The translations under genes and the position numbers were made by a program. A stretch of 64,000 nucleotides of DNA, from the NCBI RefSeq assembly GCF_000174435.1, contig NZ_ACJN02000004.1:62001-126000 (forward strand), read 5' to 3'. This DNA comes from Desulfonatronospira thiodismutans ASO3-1 (GTDB taxonomy: Bacteria; Desulfobacterota; Desulfovibrionia; Desulfovibrionales; Desulfonatronovibrionaceae). The notes under the pieces were generated by a model that was not told the origin of the DNA, searched no databases, and saw only the letters and a program-made list of their open reading frames with translations. This document shows, one piece after another, positions 42,328 through 63,042 of the stretch (positions are counted from its first letter, which is position 1; each line of letters starts with the position of its first letter).

Positions 42328-42450
42328 ATGCACCTGCAAAAAGTCAGGCAATTAAGAATTCAGCAGCCAACAATCTACATAACGCTTTGTTTTTACTGAT
42401 CTCTGACTTTTCTGACTGCAAAAATAACTTTTTGCAGTCACATCTCACCT
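42328..42450. repeat. CCTGCAAAAAGTC-family repeat with 11-bp hairpin
   Basis: CACCTGCAAAAAGTCAGGCA opens the copy and a hairpin GACTGCAAAAA-TAAC-TTTTTGCAGTC (42414-42439) closes it, with CATAACGCTTTGTTTTTACT between. Related copies: 38276/38524, 48903, 52596, 56941. The downstream 42451-42873 is AT-rich with no gene; a family I tail (CCATGCCACATGCAAATGTC) lies at about 42768-42787. Confidence 0.7.
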
Positions 42451-42497
42451 GTCTCCTGACCACTTTTGTCCCGGACATCCTCCTCATTAAAAAATAT

Positions 42498-42526
42498 TTG
42501 ACAGTTATCCAACCGTCGGATAAAAA
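42498..42526 (+). promoter_or_regulatory. Possible promoter with TTATCC/GGATAA operator-like dyad
   Basis: TTGACA (42498-42503) and TAAAAA (42521-42526) are 17 bases apart, and TTATCC / GGATAA (42505-42510, 42518-42523) form a dyad between them. It faces the amino-acid ABC operon but is about 350 bp from its start, so the link is uncertain. Confidence 0.3.
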
Positions 42527-42873
42527 ACAGTATCATTTTTTCACACAACCATTCCATTACTGTATCTTTTTAAATACCTGATGCTCCAGGTATATAATAA
42601 AAATATATAATTTAATGAACATGCCGGCATTCAATTTTAGCACACCCTCACTTGTCAGCATTTTGCAACAATCTAACCACTTACAATTAAAGAAGATGGC
42701 AGTTACCGCAGCCGCTTTGTTATATTTTTGCGAAATAATAATCAAAAAAATGCTGTGAGAGTCAGTCCCATGCCACATGCAAATGTCTAAACAGTTAAAT
42801 CATTTTTGTTTATAGATTTTGTTCTTAGTCTGCTTTAGGTTGTGTGTTTATCTTTTACTTTATGGAGGTATCG

Positions 42874-43635
42874 ATGAAAAGGAGTGGATTTTTTTTATGC
42901 CTGCTGTTAGGTGTTTTTATGTTCATGAGTATGTTTGCATCTTCGCTGCATGCTAAAAAACTTACTGTTGCAGTGGACACAGCATTTGTACCATTTGAAT
43001 TCAGAGACTCTGACACAGGTGAATATGTAGGTTTTGATATTGATCTCTGGGATGCTATTGCTGATAGACTTGGCGTAGAATATGAACTGCAGCCCATGGA
43101 CTTTTCCGGCATTGTTCCGGCATTGCAGACAGGCAGTGTAGATGCCGCTCTGGCAGGAATTACCATTACTGCAGAACGTGAAAAGGTTGTAGATTTTTCA
43201 CATCCTTACTACGACAGTGGCTTAAGCATTATGGTCATGAAGGACAATGACGAAATTCAGGGACCTGAAGACATAGAGGGCAGGACAATTGCTGTGCGTA
43301 CCGGGACCACCAGCGCAGACCATGCTCCCAGGCTCAACCCGGCAGACATTGTCCAGTTCCCCAATATCGAAGCTGCATACATGGAAGTACGCGCCGGCAG
43401 GGTGGACGCAGCCATGCATGACACCCCCAATGTTTTGTACTATATCCAGACTGCTGGTGACGACCAGGTCAAGGCTGTGGGACCCCGCATGCAGTCCCAG
43501 TCCTACGGCATCGGATTTCCATTGGGCAGCGAACTGCGAAACGATGTTAATGTCGCCTTTCTGGAGCTGGTAGACTCTGGTGAATACGCCGAGATATACA
43601 AAAAATGGTTCGGTGAAGCCCCCAACCCCAGATAA
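42874..43635 (+). CDS. Polar amino-acid ABC transporter, substrate-binding protein
   Basis: A 253-residue periplasmic binding protein of the GlnH/HisJ type. Signal peptide 1-27 (cleaved after SSLHA), then KLTVAVDTAFVPFEFRD, the family start, with YVGFDIDLWDAIADRLG, AGITITAEREKVVDFSHPYY and IAVRTGTTSADHA lining the ligand cleft. TGGAGGTATCG places the start at ATG 42874, not at the TTG ten codons earlier. The permease and ATPase genes follow; a family II element separates it from the permease. Specific ligand not readable (glutamine-like by similarity). Confidence 0.93.
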   Translation: MKRSGFFLCLLLGVFMFMSMFASSLHAKKLTVAVDTAFVPFEFRDSDTGEYVGFDIDLWDAIADRLGVEYELQPMDFSGIVPALQTGSVDAALAGITITAEREKVVDFSHPYYDSGLSIMVMKDNDEIQGPEDIEGRTIAVRTGTTSADHAPRLNPADIVQFPNIEAAYMEVRAGRVDAAMHDTPNVLYYIQTAGDDQVKAVGPRMQSQSYGIGFPLGSELRNDVNVAFLELVDSGEYAEIYKKWFGEAPNPR

Positions 43636-43694
43636 CATAGAGCCCCGCAGGTTAAATCGTAAGCATTCAGGAGGTAGTCAATTGTAGTCCCCGC

Positions 43695-43854
43695 GTAACC
43701 ATTCAGGGGGTTCCTCGGTGGTGATTACTTGCACAAGGCCTTGGGGACTGTCCCGCACTTATTTTTCTAACGCTCACATCTGTAAATTGTTCATCAGAAA
43801 AAAATAAGTGCGGGACTGTCCCCGGGCCGTTTGAGGCATCCCCTGAATGGTTAC
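43695..43854. repeat. Family II element B (160 bp), inside the ABC operon
   Basis: Ends GTAACCATTCAGGGGG and TCCCCTGAATGGTTAC; inner arms GGGGACTGTCCCGCACTTAT and AATAAGTGCGGGACTGTCCC. It fills most of the binding-protein/permease gap. Confidence 0.93.
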
Positions 43855-43942
43855 GTTAAATCTCCTGCGGGGCTTTCCCCTCACCGGTTTCTTATAGAGT
43901 TTCCCTTTCATTTTAATACCACTTTTACCTTATGGTTGACTT

Positions 43943-44599
43943 ATGGATTTTCAATACGAATTCGTCCTTTCCACTCTCCCGCAATTGATGCAGGGAGTCA
44001 AGCTGACCATCCACATAACCGTTTACGGTCTTCTGGGTGGTATGGCGCTTGGAGTTCTTACCGGCCTTATCCTGGCTTACAGGATACCTGTTATCAATTA
44101 TGCCGGTGCCATTTATGTATGGATTGTCAGGGGTACGCCCATTGTTGTCCAGGCCATGTTCGTCTATTTCGCCCTGCCCCTGGCCATGGGCATACGAATG
44201 ACCGGGGTATATGCAGCCATTCTGGTTCTGGCCATCAACGCCGGGGCCTATATTGCGGAAATCGTCAGGGGAGCGGTTCTGTCCATAAATAAAGGTTATG
44301 TTGATGCCGGTCTGGCCCTGGGACTGTCCAGGTTTCAGGTAACCCGGTACATTGTAGGCCCGCTGGCCTTTCGCAGGATGATTCCTCCTCTGGGCAACCA
44401 GTTTATTATCGGACTCAAGGATACTTCCCTGTTTATAGTTATAGGAGTCGGAGAACTGACCCGCCAGGGGCAGGAAATTATGGCTTCATCTTTCAGGGCC
44501 CTGGAAGTCTGGACCGCAGTGGCCATTATTTATCTCGTGTTGACAACTGTTCTGGCGCTTTCACTTCGCTGGCTCGAACGGAGAATGAAGATCATATGA
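43943..44599 (+). CDS. Polar amino-acid ABC transporter, permease
   Basis: A 218-residue His/Glu/Gln/Arg-type permease with about five helices. LPQLMQGVKLTIHITVYGLL is the usual first segment, and AGAYIAEIVRGAVLSINKGY followed by VDAGLALGLSRFQ is the EAA loop that contacts the ATPase. Its stop overlaps the ATPase start by four bases (ATGA). Confidence 0.94.
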   Translation: MDFQYEFVLSTLPQLMQGVKLTIHITVYGLLGGMALGVLTGLILAYRIPVINYAGAIYVWIVRGTPIVVQAMFVYFALPLAMGIRMTGVYAAILVLAINAGAYIAEIVRGAVLSINKGYVDAGLALGLSRFQVTRYIVGPLAFRRMIPPLGNQFIIGLKDTSLFIVIGVGELTRQGQEIMASSFRALEVWTAVAIIYLVLTTVLALSLRWLERRMKII

Positions 44600-45324
44600 A
44601 AATCGTAGAATGCAGAAAGGTGTGCAAGAGCTTTGGAGACTCCCAGGTCCTGCACGATATCGACCTGTCCATAAATTCCGGGGAAGTAGTGGTCGTTTTG
44701 GGCCCCTCAGGCTCCGGCAAATCCACCCTGCTTCGATGCATCAACGTCCTGGAGACCATTACATCCGGCGATCTGCTGGTGGATGGTAAAAGCGTGGTGG
44801 ATCCCGGGACCGATCTTCGACACATACGCCAGGAAGCAGGCATGGTCTTTCAGCAGTTCAACCTTTTTCCCCAGATGACCGCCCTGGAAAATGTGGCCTT
44901 TGGTCCAAGAAAAGTCAGGGGTACTGATAAAAAGGAGGCCAATGACCAGGCCATGGAACTGTTGACCAAGGTGGGCCTGGCAGAAAGAGCCCATTATCAT
45001 CCCTCGCAGCTTTCCGGCGGTCAACAGCAGCGGGTGGCCATTGCCAGGGCACTGGCAGTAAAACCCAAGCTCATGCTCTTTGACGAGCCAACCTCCGCTT
45101 TGGACCCGGAACTCAAAGGTGAAGTTCTATCGGTGATGCGCTCCCTTGCTGAAGAAGGCATGACCATGATAGTAGTATCCCACGAGATTCGTTTTGCCCT
45201 GAATGTAGGCAACCGGCTTATATTTATGGACAACGGAAGTGTCGTACATGACGGGGATCCCAAAGAACTGTATGAAAATCCCCCCACAGAACGCTTGCGG
45301 GATTTTCTGCATGCTATCCAGTAA
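44596..45324 (+). CDS. Polar amino-acid ABC transporter, ATP-binding protein
   Basis: A 242-residue ABC ATPase of the GlnQ type: Walker A GPSGSGKS (36-43), Q-loop MVFQQFNLFPQMTALEN, signature LSGGQQQRVAIARAL, Walker B LMLFDEPTSALDPEL and switch histidine VVSHE. It energises import of the amino acid captured by the binding protein encoded upstream. Last gene of the operon; no clear terminator follows. Confidence 0.95.
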   Translation: MKIVECRKVCKSFGDSQVLHDIDLSINSGEVVVVLGPSGSGKSTLLRCINVLETITSGDLLVDGKSVVDPGTDLRHIRQEAGMVFQQFNLFPQMTALENVAFGPRKVRGTDKKEANDQAMELLTKVGLAERAHYHPSQLSGGQQQRVAIARALAVKPKLMLFDEPTSALDPELKGEVLSVMRSLAEEGMTMIVVSHEIRFALNVGNRLIFMDNGSVVHDGDPKELYENPPTERLRDFLHAIQ

Positions 45325-45477
45325 AAACAGCTTTTACACTGGCTGAGCTTTTTAATTCAGGTTTACATTTTAACAGCATGGGCAGCTGCATGCTCATCCG
45401 TATTAAACTTGAGTTTGCGCAATGAGGCCGACATTGTAAAGGGTGCTTATTTACACTATCAAATCCAGGGAGATATC

Positions 45478-45768
45478 ATGAGTGAACAAAGAGATGCTTT
45501 TGTACAAAAACTAAAAGCCAAAATCGACGAGTGGAACGCTGAAATTGATCGTCTGAACGCCAAGGCTGAACAGGTTGGGGCAGAAGCGAAAATGGAATAC
45601 CTGCAGCAGGTGGAGGAAATAAAAAAACACCGCGATGATGCTCTGCAGAAAATGGAACAACTCCAGGAAGCTGGGGAAGGTGCCTGGGAGGACATGAAGT
45701 CAGGGGTGGAAATGGCTGTTGACTCCATGGTCCAGGCCGCAAAATCCGCCAGGGAACGCTTCAAGTAA
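45478..45768 (+). CDS. Small coiled-coil protein, sll1863 stress-response-like
   Basis: A 96-residue all-helical protein (KLKAKIDEWNAEIDRLNAKA, then EGAWEDMKSGVEMAVDSM). The pattern of an N-terminal heptad region followed by a WEDxKxGxE segment matches the sll1863-type stress protein family. AGGGAG six bases upstream fixes the start at 45478; the frame opens 23 codons earlier. A paralogue lies convergently at 46067-46387 with the same order of motifs. Molecular function unknown. Confidence 0.8.
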   Translation: MSEQRDAFVQKLKAKIDEWNAEIDRLNAKAEQVGAEAKMEYLQQVEEIKKHRDDALQKMEQLQEAGEGAWEDMKSGVEMAVDSMVQAAKSARERFK

Positions 45769-45822
45769 ATCAGGCGGTCAGCAAATATTAAGGTGAGAAG
45801 CTGATTAACGAACCACCCCCGA

Positions 45823-46042
45823 CCCCTCCTTAGCCAAGGAGGGGAGCAGATCGAGGCATGGCTGCACTCTGTAGCAGGCAGTTAACTGTATGCGAAATCA
45901 AAACCTCCAGATAAAGATGCAAAGCACAAAAAAACTGTCCATACTGATGCAGACCGCAAAGAGACTTTCCTCAGCAAATATCGAACTTATCCCCCTGTGT
46001 AAATCCAAGCCGCGGTGCAGCTCCCCTCCTTAGCCAAGGAGG
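45823..46042. repeat. Two CCCCTCCTTAGCCAAGGAGG palindromes between the paralogues
   Basis: The identical palindrome (9-bp arms around AGCC at 45823-45844; about 7-8 bp at 46023-46042) occurs twice in the spacer, with GACC/GAGCC and GGGGGT flanks placed in mirror fashion. Either could end transcription of the adjacent gene, or the pair could bound a small insertion. Confidence 0.7.
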
Positions 46043-46066
46043 AGCCGGGGGTGCTTGTATGGCAGA

Positions 46067-46387
46067 CTACTTTTTCCCGGGTCCTTCCCTGTAAGCTTTT
46101 TCAAACTCCTCCTTGGCTCTGGAGAAACTTTTTTTCCAGGTGGCCCAGGATTTTTCCATGCCCTGCTTCAGGTCCTCCCAGCCGGATTCGCCCGAGTCCT
46201 GCACAGCAGCAAGCTTGCCTTCGAGTTCTTTCAGTTTTTTGCGCAAGTCCAGCATCTGCTGCTGATACTCTTCCTTGAGTCCACCTTCGGCCTGGGCGGC
46301 TTCATCGGTCAATTTGTCCAGGTCCTTGTTCAATTCGTCCATCTTGGCCTTGAGCCTGCTGATATATTCTTCCTTATTTTCGTCCAT
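46067..46387 (-). CDS. Small coiled-coil protein, sll1863 stress-response-like (paralogue)
   Basis: A 106-residue paralogue of the 45478-45768 product: SRLKAKMDELNKDLDKLTDE, YQQQMLDLRKKLKELEGKL and SGWEDLKQGMEKSWATWKKS line up in order with the other protein. Predicted wholly helical, lysine- and glutamate-rich. AGGAGG precedes the ATG by 8 bases. Transcribed toward its paralogue. Function unknown beyond the stress-associated family. Confidence 0.8.
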   Translation of the reverse strand: MDENKEEYISRLKAKMDELNKDLDKLTDEAAQAEGGLKEEYQQQMLDLRKKLKELEGKLAAVQDSGESGWEDLKQGMEKSWATWKKSFSRAKEEFEKAYREGPGKK

Positions 46388-62645: not shown

Positions 62646-62744
62646 CAATCCCCAATCCCTAAATTCCCCAATCCCTAAATTCCCAATCCCTAAATCCCCC
62701 AATCCCTGAATTCCTAAATCCCTAAATCCCTAAATCCCCAAATC
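62646..62744. repeat. Telomere-like TTTAGGGATT tandem tract
   Basis: On the plus strand it reads CCCCAATCCCTAAATT twice, then shorter AATCCCTAAAT and CCCTAAAT units, ending at the STAS stop. On the transcribed strand it is runs of GGG/GGGG separated by ATTTA, i.e. G-quadruplex-capable RNA between the STAS gene and cheA. Confidence 0.85.
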
Positions 62745-63042
62745 AATTTTTACCCTCAATCTCGAAATGTTTATTCAGACGCATGACCTGAAAAAGGTTG
62801 TAGAGGTTGTCGTCGACGTTCACCAGCTTAAACCCCTTGCCTTCCTTCTTGAGAGAATTAAATGTGGCGATAAGTACGCCAACGCCGATGGAATCCACCT
62901 GGTCCACCTGCCCCAGGTCAACCACCAGGGTCCCGGACTCCTGCGGGATGGACTCCTTTAGCTTTTCCTTGATCTCCTTGGCGTTGGCTGAAACAATATT
63001 TTGGTCAATCTTGAGAACCAACTGGTTTTCTTCCCCCTGCAT
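62743..63042 (-). CDS. STAS-domain protein (anti-sigma-factor-antagonist type)
   Basis: A 99-residue STAS protein: LVLKIDQNIVSANAKEIKEK, VVDLGQVDQVDSIGVGVLIA (the phosphorylatable serine is S in the DSIGVG motif) and FKLVNVDDNLYNLFQVMRL. GGGAGG eight bases upstream fixes the start at 63042, although the frame opens at 63207. In this place it probably scaffolds or regulates the chemosensory proteins encoded downstream. Confidence 0.9.
   Translation of the reverse strand: MQGEENQLVLKIDQNIVSANAKEIKEKLKESIPQESGTLVVDLGQVDQVDSIGVGVLIATFNSLKKEGKGFKLVNVDDNLYNLFQVMRLNKHFEIEGKN

Follow-up and report, generated by a model that had tools for sequence, protein, structure and literature searches.

In Escherichia coli, the gene for the binding protein is the stabilised gene in all five ABC operons named in a decay study, and 26 of the 34 gene pairs with a stabilised 5' gene have a 3' end just past a stable hairpin that is without a U tract (PMC5927463). 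Among MITEs, Chunjie of Geobacter uraniireducens is, in the account of a review, 178-235 bp long, with numerous copies in intergenic DNA, including one inside an operon for phosphate uptake; the review calls this operon disrupted, whereas the title of the paper that it cites (Chen et al., 2008) calls the operon structure undisturbed (PMC10969869). According to the same review, the palindromic Correia MITEs of Neisseria become part of transcripts and can then be cut by RNase III (PMC10969869).

Here we describe a 196-bp MITE between glnH and glnP in a stretch of 64,000 nucleotides from Desulfonatronospira thiodismutans ASO3-1, referred to below as the window. The MITE resembles Chunjie in its size, its many intergenic copies and the position of one copy inside an uptake operon; Chunjie is compared by the description in the review, which gives no native-hairpin context for it. 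The likeness to Correia, also palindromic, is one of description, and the cutting by RNase III is described for Correia. The explanation that we regard as probable is that a MITE with the hallmarks of IS66 entered a native hairpin at its loop and is tolerated there as a self-complementary passenger, the native hairpin being the functional-looking part.

An older hairpin between glnH and glnP

The operon consists of three genes, whose names follow from NCBIfam matches that all exceed the curated cut-offs:

42874 to 43635, + strand: glnH, glutamine-type substrate-binding protein (NF007029, 338.8 bits, cut-off 303; the ATG after GGAGG was chosen by us as the start)
43943 to 44599, + strand: glnP, permease (NF007028, 310 bits, cut-off 303)
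44596 to 45324, + strand: glnQ, ATPase (NF007027, 420.5 bits, cut-off 379)

The nearest named relatives of the permease come from MAGs of Desulfonatronospira and Desulfonatronovibrio, and the genome was labelled "Desulfonatronospira-like" for this reason. Elsewhere in the window, the small products of the convergent open reading frames 45409-45768 and 46067-46387 resemble each other on visual inspection, and a pair of 37-nt inverted repeats (45811-45847 and 46020-46056) lies between the two frames; an array of AATCCCTA-like units, mostly spaced by 8 bases, occupies 62647-62748.

The spacer between glnH and glnP extends from 43636 to 43942 (307 nt) and contains the two arms of a native hairpin, on either side of the MITE:

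43641 to 43651, + strand: left arm of the native intercistronic hairpin, AGCCCCGCAGG, complementary to 43864-43874; the hairpin is intact in L107 and L111
43864 to 43874, + strand: right arm of the same hairpin, CCTGCGGGGCT, complementary to 43641-43651 and predicted to pair with it in the filled site (mean probability 0.995)

When the flanks of the MITE are joined, they read AGCCCCGCAGG-TTAAATCT-CCTGCGGGGCT, a perfect 11-bp hairpin directly past the glnH stop codon, in whose loop the MITE is found. The empty site with the hairpin intact is present in the congeneric loci L107 (AGCCCCGCAGGTGAAATCGCCTGCGGGGCT) and L111 (GCCCCGCAGGTTAAACCTCCTGCGGGGC), where the permeases are 97% and 90% identical, respectively. 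In L111, a MITE right end of 20 bp is also present separately, 18 nt past the hairpin, and so members of the family have entered the glnH-glnP spacer on more than one occasion. That 535-nt spacer (L111:2519-3000, with the same sequence in G004) holds, besides the right-end remnant, a different hairpin repeat, GGGGACTGGCTCTCCCC..., in two directly oriented copies.

A strong hairpin in the gap between the binding-protein and permease genes, as at malE-malF, begins no more than 20 nt past the glnH stop in all ten close orthologues scanned, whose permeases are 76-97% identical. Over the first 60 nt after the stop, these hairpins have predicted energies of -16.0 to -44.2 kcal/mol, the latter in L356, and they begin 4 to 17 nt past the stop. 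In shuffle controls, which covered these ten orthologues (nine plus L356), nine of the hairpins were better than all 20 shuffles, and that of L358 was equalled by two of the 20. Two other close orthologues, L110 and L352, were left uncounted as no glnH end was found in the locus, and so were L349, L350, L351, L354 and L357, which repeat the spacers of L107, L108, L111, L109 and L112, respectively. A wider scan, which took in distant orthologues and left out L356, covered 88 loci and yielded 44 spacers of at least 25 nt; in 31 of these, the first 60 nt contain a hairpin at least as stable as -12 kcal/mol, and in the other 13 they contain none of that stability. The sequences of the native-type hairpins vary between genera, and it is therefore the structure, not the sequence, that is common to the orthologues.

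Because the congeneric sites are empty with the hairpin intact and all ten close orthologues have a hairpin, the native hairpin is older than the MITE, and so is the malE/malF-type device at the glnH-glnP junction. The first-pass annotation had proposed to compare this spacer in relatives without the element; they already have the hairpin. It is the native hairpin, not the MITE, that the relatives have in common and that is the candidate separator of expression. Like the malE-malF hairpin of E. coli, it lies between a binding-protein and a permease gene and is followed by no good U tract (TTTCCCCTC); decay was measured in E. coli, whereas its role here is deduced, and the loop here holds a MITE (PMC5927463). 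By its likeness to the hairpins of the E. coli ABC operons, the native hairpin would act in mRNA decay, most likely by shielding the glnH mRNA from 3' exonucleases after cleavage downstream.

Boundaries and history of the insertion

The inserted sequence and its parts are as follows:

43651 to 43658, + strand: left target-site duplication, GTTAAATC, identical to 43855-43862
43659 to 43854, + strand: whole MITE, 196 bp, with left end GTAAGCATTCAGGAGG and right end CCCCTGAATGGTTAC, delimited by the 8-bp duplication on both sides, the family of copies and the empty sites in relatives
43659 to 43694, + strand: left extension, 36 bp, with a GTAAGC-type left end, probably the remnant of an older element (88% identity over 33 bp to copy ends in L046 and L277)
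43695 to 43854, + strand: inner type-C copy, 160 bp, otherwise complete, with GTAACC ends (90% identity to the L032 copy over 135 bp, and alignment of the types)
43743 to 43823, + strand: type-C hairpin core between GGGGACTGTCCC and GGGACTGTCCCC, with arms GCACTTATTTTT and AAAAATAAGTGC (from sequence, fold and comparison of types)
43855 to 43862, + strand: right target-site duplication, GTTAAATC, identical to 43651-43658

On the left, GTTAAATC directly precedes GTAAGCATTCAGGAGG at 43659, and on the right it directly follows ...GAATGGTTAC, which ends the element at 43854; the two octamers form a perfect 8-bp target duplication. GTAAGCATTCAGGAGG and the complement of CCCCTGAATGGTTAC constitute terminal inverted repeats. 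The octamer that precedes 43695, GTCCCCGC, has no match in the right flank. In alignments with two congeners, the gap measures 204 nt (43651-43854), which is exactly the element plus one duplication. A fold of 43680-43870 gives a hairpin of -94.1 kcal/mol (z -9.8), which none of 200 shuffles equalled.

These results bear out the earlier view of an amino-acid ABC operon in which a repeat-family element with a strong hairpin separates the binding-protein gene, ending at 43635, from the permease gene, starting at 43943. They also bear out that the element is an inserted mobile one, since its target is duplicated and the relatives' sites are empty. Its extent, given as 43695-43854, was right at the right edge but not at the left, where the octamer match puts the true start 36 bases further left, at 43659. 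The element does lie in the gap between the two genes; rather than filling it, it takes up about two thirds of the 307-nt spacer, and its location within an older hairpin had escaped the first-pass annotation.

A search of 42400-45200 against Rfam returned three matches up to an E-value of 1, all to microRNA families and below gathering thresholds (the best at 31.4 bits against 95), which we take as chance likeness of long hairpins, and a search of a plasmid collection returned no match.

From the arrangement of the ends, the site was probably hit twice, with the copies nested and the intervening stretch then lost. A GTAAGC-type copy would have been inserted first, and a GTAACC type-C copy would then have entered this first element; afterward, the DNA separating the two right ends, which are direct repeats, would have been deleted, with the outer duplication kept. 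We infer nested insertion followed by loss as the simplest account of the window copy; alternatively, the composite may have transposed as one unit.

Predicted consequences for the native stem and for expression

Folding was assessed by thermodynamic pair probabilities, in which the 11 native pairs of the filled site are predicted to close below the stem that the element itself forms. In 150 shuffles of the element, the probability of the native stem had a median of 0.990 and was below 0.5 in 15% of the cases and at least 0.9 in 68%; with 150 pieces of unrelated window DNA as inserts, the corresponding figures were 21% and 67%. Each of the 49 family members used as inserts, the window copy included, left the native stem at 0.9 or above, and none brought it below 0.5. 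Since many random inserts also keep the native stem, the palindrome is predicted to protect it to a modest degree beyond what random inserts do. The delay of about 200 nt between the native arms could slow co-transcriptional folding.

The first-pass annotation had put forward the element's long hairpin as a possible separator of high GlnH from lower GlnPQ expression, a task usually left to native hairpins. That a hairpin at this junction has such a role is plausible in view of the ten close orthologues and of what the E. coli study describes (PMC5927463); the element as that device is not supported, given that the native hairpin is older and predicted to be intact. A reading in which the element is nevertheless an active separator would have its long stem block 3'-to-5' decay or be cut by RNase III, raising GlnH over GlnPQ beyond the level set by the native hairpin. 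Its very stable stem is placed directly between glnH and glnP, the review reports that RNase III cuts neisserial Correia MITEs and that ERIC insertions alter transcript decay (PMC10969869), and in the ABC operons covered by the E. coli study it is the gene for the binding protein that is stabilised (PMC5927463). Yet relatives free of the element have a hairpin at the same place, the congeners L107 and L111 have no element in the loop, and the element sits within the native hairpin and leaves its stem predicted intact. We therefore consider active separation unlikely, although the element may have an effect on the GlnH:GlnPQ ratio.

Another way in which the element might uncouple glnPQ from glnH is by terminating transcription. 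Two terminator-like sites, one per strand, were predicted in its core, where shuffles give 0.5. However, their stems have merely 5 pairs, and in the full-length fold their bases and T tract fall in a longer helix, so that the sites appear weak. No promoter-like site from which glnPQ could be restarted was found in 43560-43960, which says little because 0.4 is expected by chance. Termination by the element is in our judgement very unlikely.

What we propose instead is that a MITE with GTAA termini and an 8-bp target duplication entered the loop of the existing glnH-glnP hairpin as a tolerated passenger. Being a long inverted repeat, it would fold on itself, and the native arms would close beneath it, so that the insertion would probably change the stoichiometry of the operon little and the element would be kept as a passenger. 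Neutrality of the insertion is thus what the folding model suggests.

The MITE family in the genome and the genus

The family was defined solely by its ends, the label "Family II" being that of the first-pass annotation. The 15-bp end GTAACCATTCAGGGG, with up to one mismatch, occurs at 366 places in the genome from which the window comes, against one for the reversed pattern, an abundance that is not due to chance; exact ends number 196 in 4.1 Mb (tallied as 67 + 85 + 44 and as 99 + 97). In a search at family rank across 18 genomes, the exact end was present in five, all of one genus, with 196 occurrences in the window's genome, 171 in G004, 8 in G003 and 1 each in G001 and G002; none was found in two further congeners or in 11 genomes of three other genera.

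Pairs of ends with up to three mismatches and 35-700 bp apart were surveyed in the window and in 247 loci of its genome. Among the 120 pairs found, the 8-bp duplication is exact in 59 and has one mismatch in 20, giving 79 copies, whereas about 0.05 pairs matching at 7 or 8 of the 8 bases are expected by chance. The other 41 pairs (two to seven mismatches), which include some nested or mispaired ends, were excluded from the counts below. The copies are 60-457 bp long, a length that leaves no room for a transposase gene. Classified by length and core motif, they fall into types A (no core, 11 copies), B (3), C (10, the window copy among them), D (45) and E (10). The family thus combines terminal inverted repeats, a duplication of fixed length, short size with many copies and, for the window copy, empty sites (L107 and L111), as is characteristic of MITEs. 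We found no description of it in the literature on MITEs, IS66, sulfate reducers and Desulfonatronospira genomes, a body that consisted mostly of papers available without subscription.

The family is also modular, in that copies with the same ends may lack a core, contain a GGGGACTGTCCCC palindrome or contain varied hairpin cores between two copies of GGGACTGTCCC (e.g., L204:1501-1563, L078:1501-1590, L047:1501-1655, L302:1329-1505 and window 43695-43854), and the cores look as if inserted into the central palindrome. At L004:1501-1692, a degenerate family end and a GGGGACTGTCCC palindrome, which may be a decayed copy, adjoin a 68-aa fragment of a Y1 transposase.

The outer arms of eight type-C copies are predicted to pair no better within copies (-61.3 kcal/mol) than between copies (-63.0 kcal/mol), and those of 41 type-D copies pair slightly better within (-68.6 vs. 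-66.0 kcal/mol). As the arms hardly pair better within than between copies, there is little evidence in these predicted energies of selection on the hairpins of individual copies; co-evolution of arms within copies was accordingly rejected as little or none.

With a crude caller (open reading frames of at least 100 aa), 31 of the 79 copies lie between co-directional open reading frames, 19 between divergent and 7 between convergent ones, 18 are inside an open reading frame and 4 were unplaced. By the same crude calling, 11 of the 79, including the window copy, are in co-directional spacers of at most 120 nt.

If the family were site-specific for hairpin loops or terminators, the position at glnH-glnP would reflect a choice of target. 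At the insertion point, five of the 79 rebuilt empty sites reach an inverted-repeat score of 12 or more, where a control set of 1205 nearby positions predicts 1.2. With intergenic controls only, this excess shrinks to 4 of 58 copies against 2.1 expected (2115 positions), with equal medians, and the threshold of 12 was set after the data had been seen. Loop targeting as a rule of the family is not supported and, as an explanation of the position, is extremely unlikely; the loop position is one of a few, with no rule.

IS66-type hallmarks and the parent element

A palindromic element of high copy number that lies mostly outside open reading frames could also be of the REP/BIME kind, mobilised by a RAYT (Y1) transposase, and the genome has 31 matches to Y1_Tnp. 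This reading is contradicted by the 8-bp duplications at the element and in its family; to our knowledge, Y1 transposases are not expected to give such duplications. Furthermore, when 30 of the Y1 loci, partly overlapping and each about 3 kb long, were scanned for family-like ends at a tolerance of two mismatches, L004 alone had one and the other 29 had none. We ruled out a RAYT/REP origin as scarcely credible on these two grounds.

GTAA ends together with 8-bp duplications are the signature of IS66 elements, and the MITE has both, which fits mobilisation of the IS66 type. Two IS66 elements are listed with 8-bp duplications in PMC3281130. The window's genome contains 16 matches to PF03050, and its own IS66 copies likewise have GTAA termini and 8-bp duplications. 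The comparison of ends covers group 1, as the five copies of group 2 ran beyond the loci examined. Group 1 comprises nine copies of 2483-2484 bp with ends GTAAGCGTCC; the 8-bp duplication is exact in five and differs at 4 to 8 bases in the other four. The left end of the MITE, GTAAGCATTCA, agrees with GTAAGCGTCCA of these copies at 9 of 11 bases, a likeness that is not exact. A 2622-bp IS66-like element of G004 (L369:315-2936) has ends GTAACTTCTCAATAG and an exact 8-bp duplication CAAAAACA, with no exact match to the ends of the MITE. The second gene of this element matches DruA of the Druantia defence system (PF14236).

The MITE differs from the IS66 family in having no transposase, and no insertion sequence with its exact ends (those expected of a parent being GTAA, then C or G, then CATTCAGGGG) was found in IS66 searches of its own genome and six congeners or in end scans of the loci. 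A scan for an autonomous parent, with matching ends 460-6000 bp apart and a duplication, returned one 469-bp candidate (L309) from loci of mostly about 3 kb. Because no insertion sequence with the MITE's own ends was found, the parent is putatively assigned at the level of the family, IS66, on the evidence of the termini and the duplications.

Implications

The insertion is ordinary in kind: a new member of the MITE class at a well-documented type of site, in which the older hairpin, not the newcomer, is common to the relatives. A bolder proposal, to which we give little credence, is that self-complementary MITEs enter the loops of regulatory hairpins without breaking them, making intercistronic hairpins safe landing sites, and that the landed element extends the native hairpin with a double-stranded arm that, as a target of RNase III or exonucleases, tunes GlnH:GlnPQ here and not in the relatives with the empty site. 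For this operon, the attribution is corrected, in that the candidate for separating expression is the older hairpin common to the relatives. Because congeneric species have this glnH-glnP hairpin either bare or with a MITE in its loop, the locus is a natural before-and-after pair on which one can cleanly test whether mobile palindromes rewire the hairpins inside operons or just decorate them.
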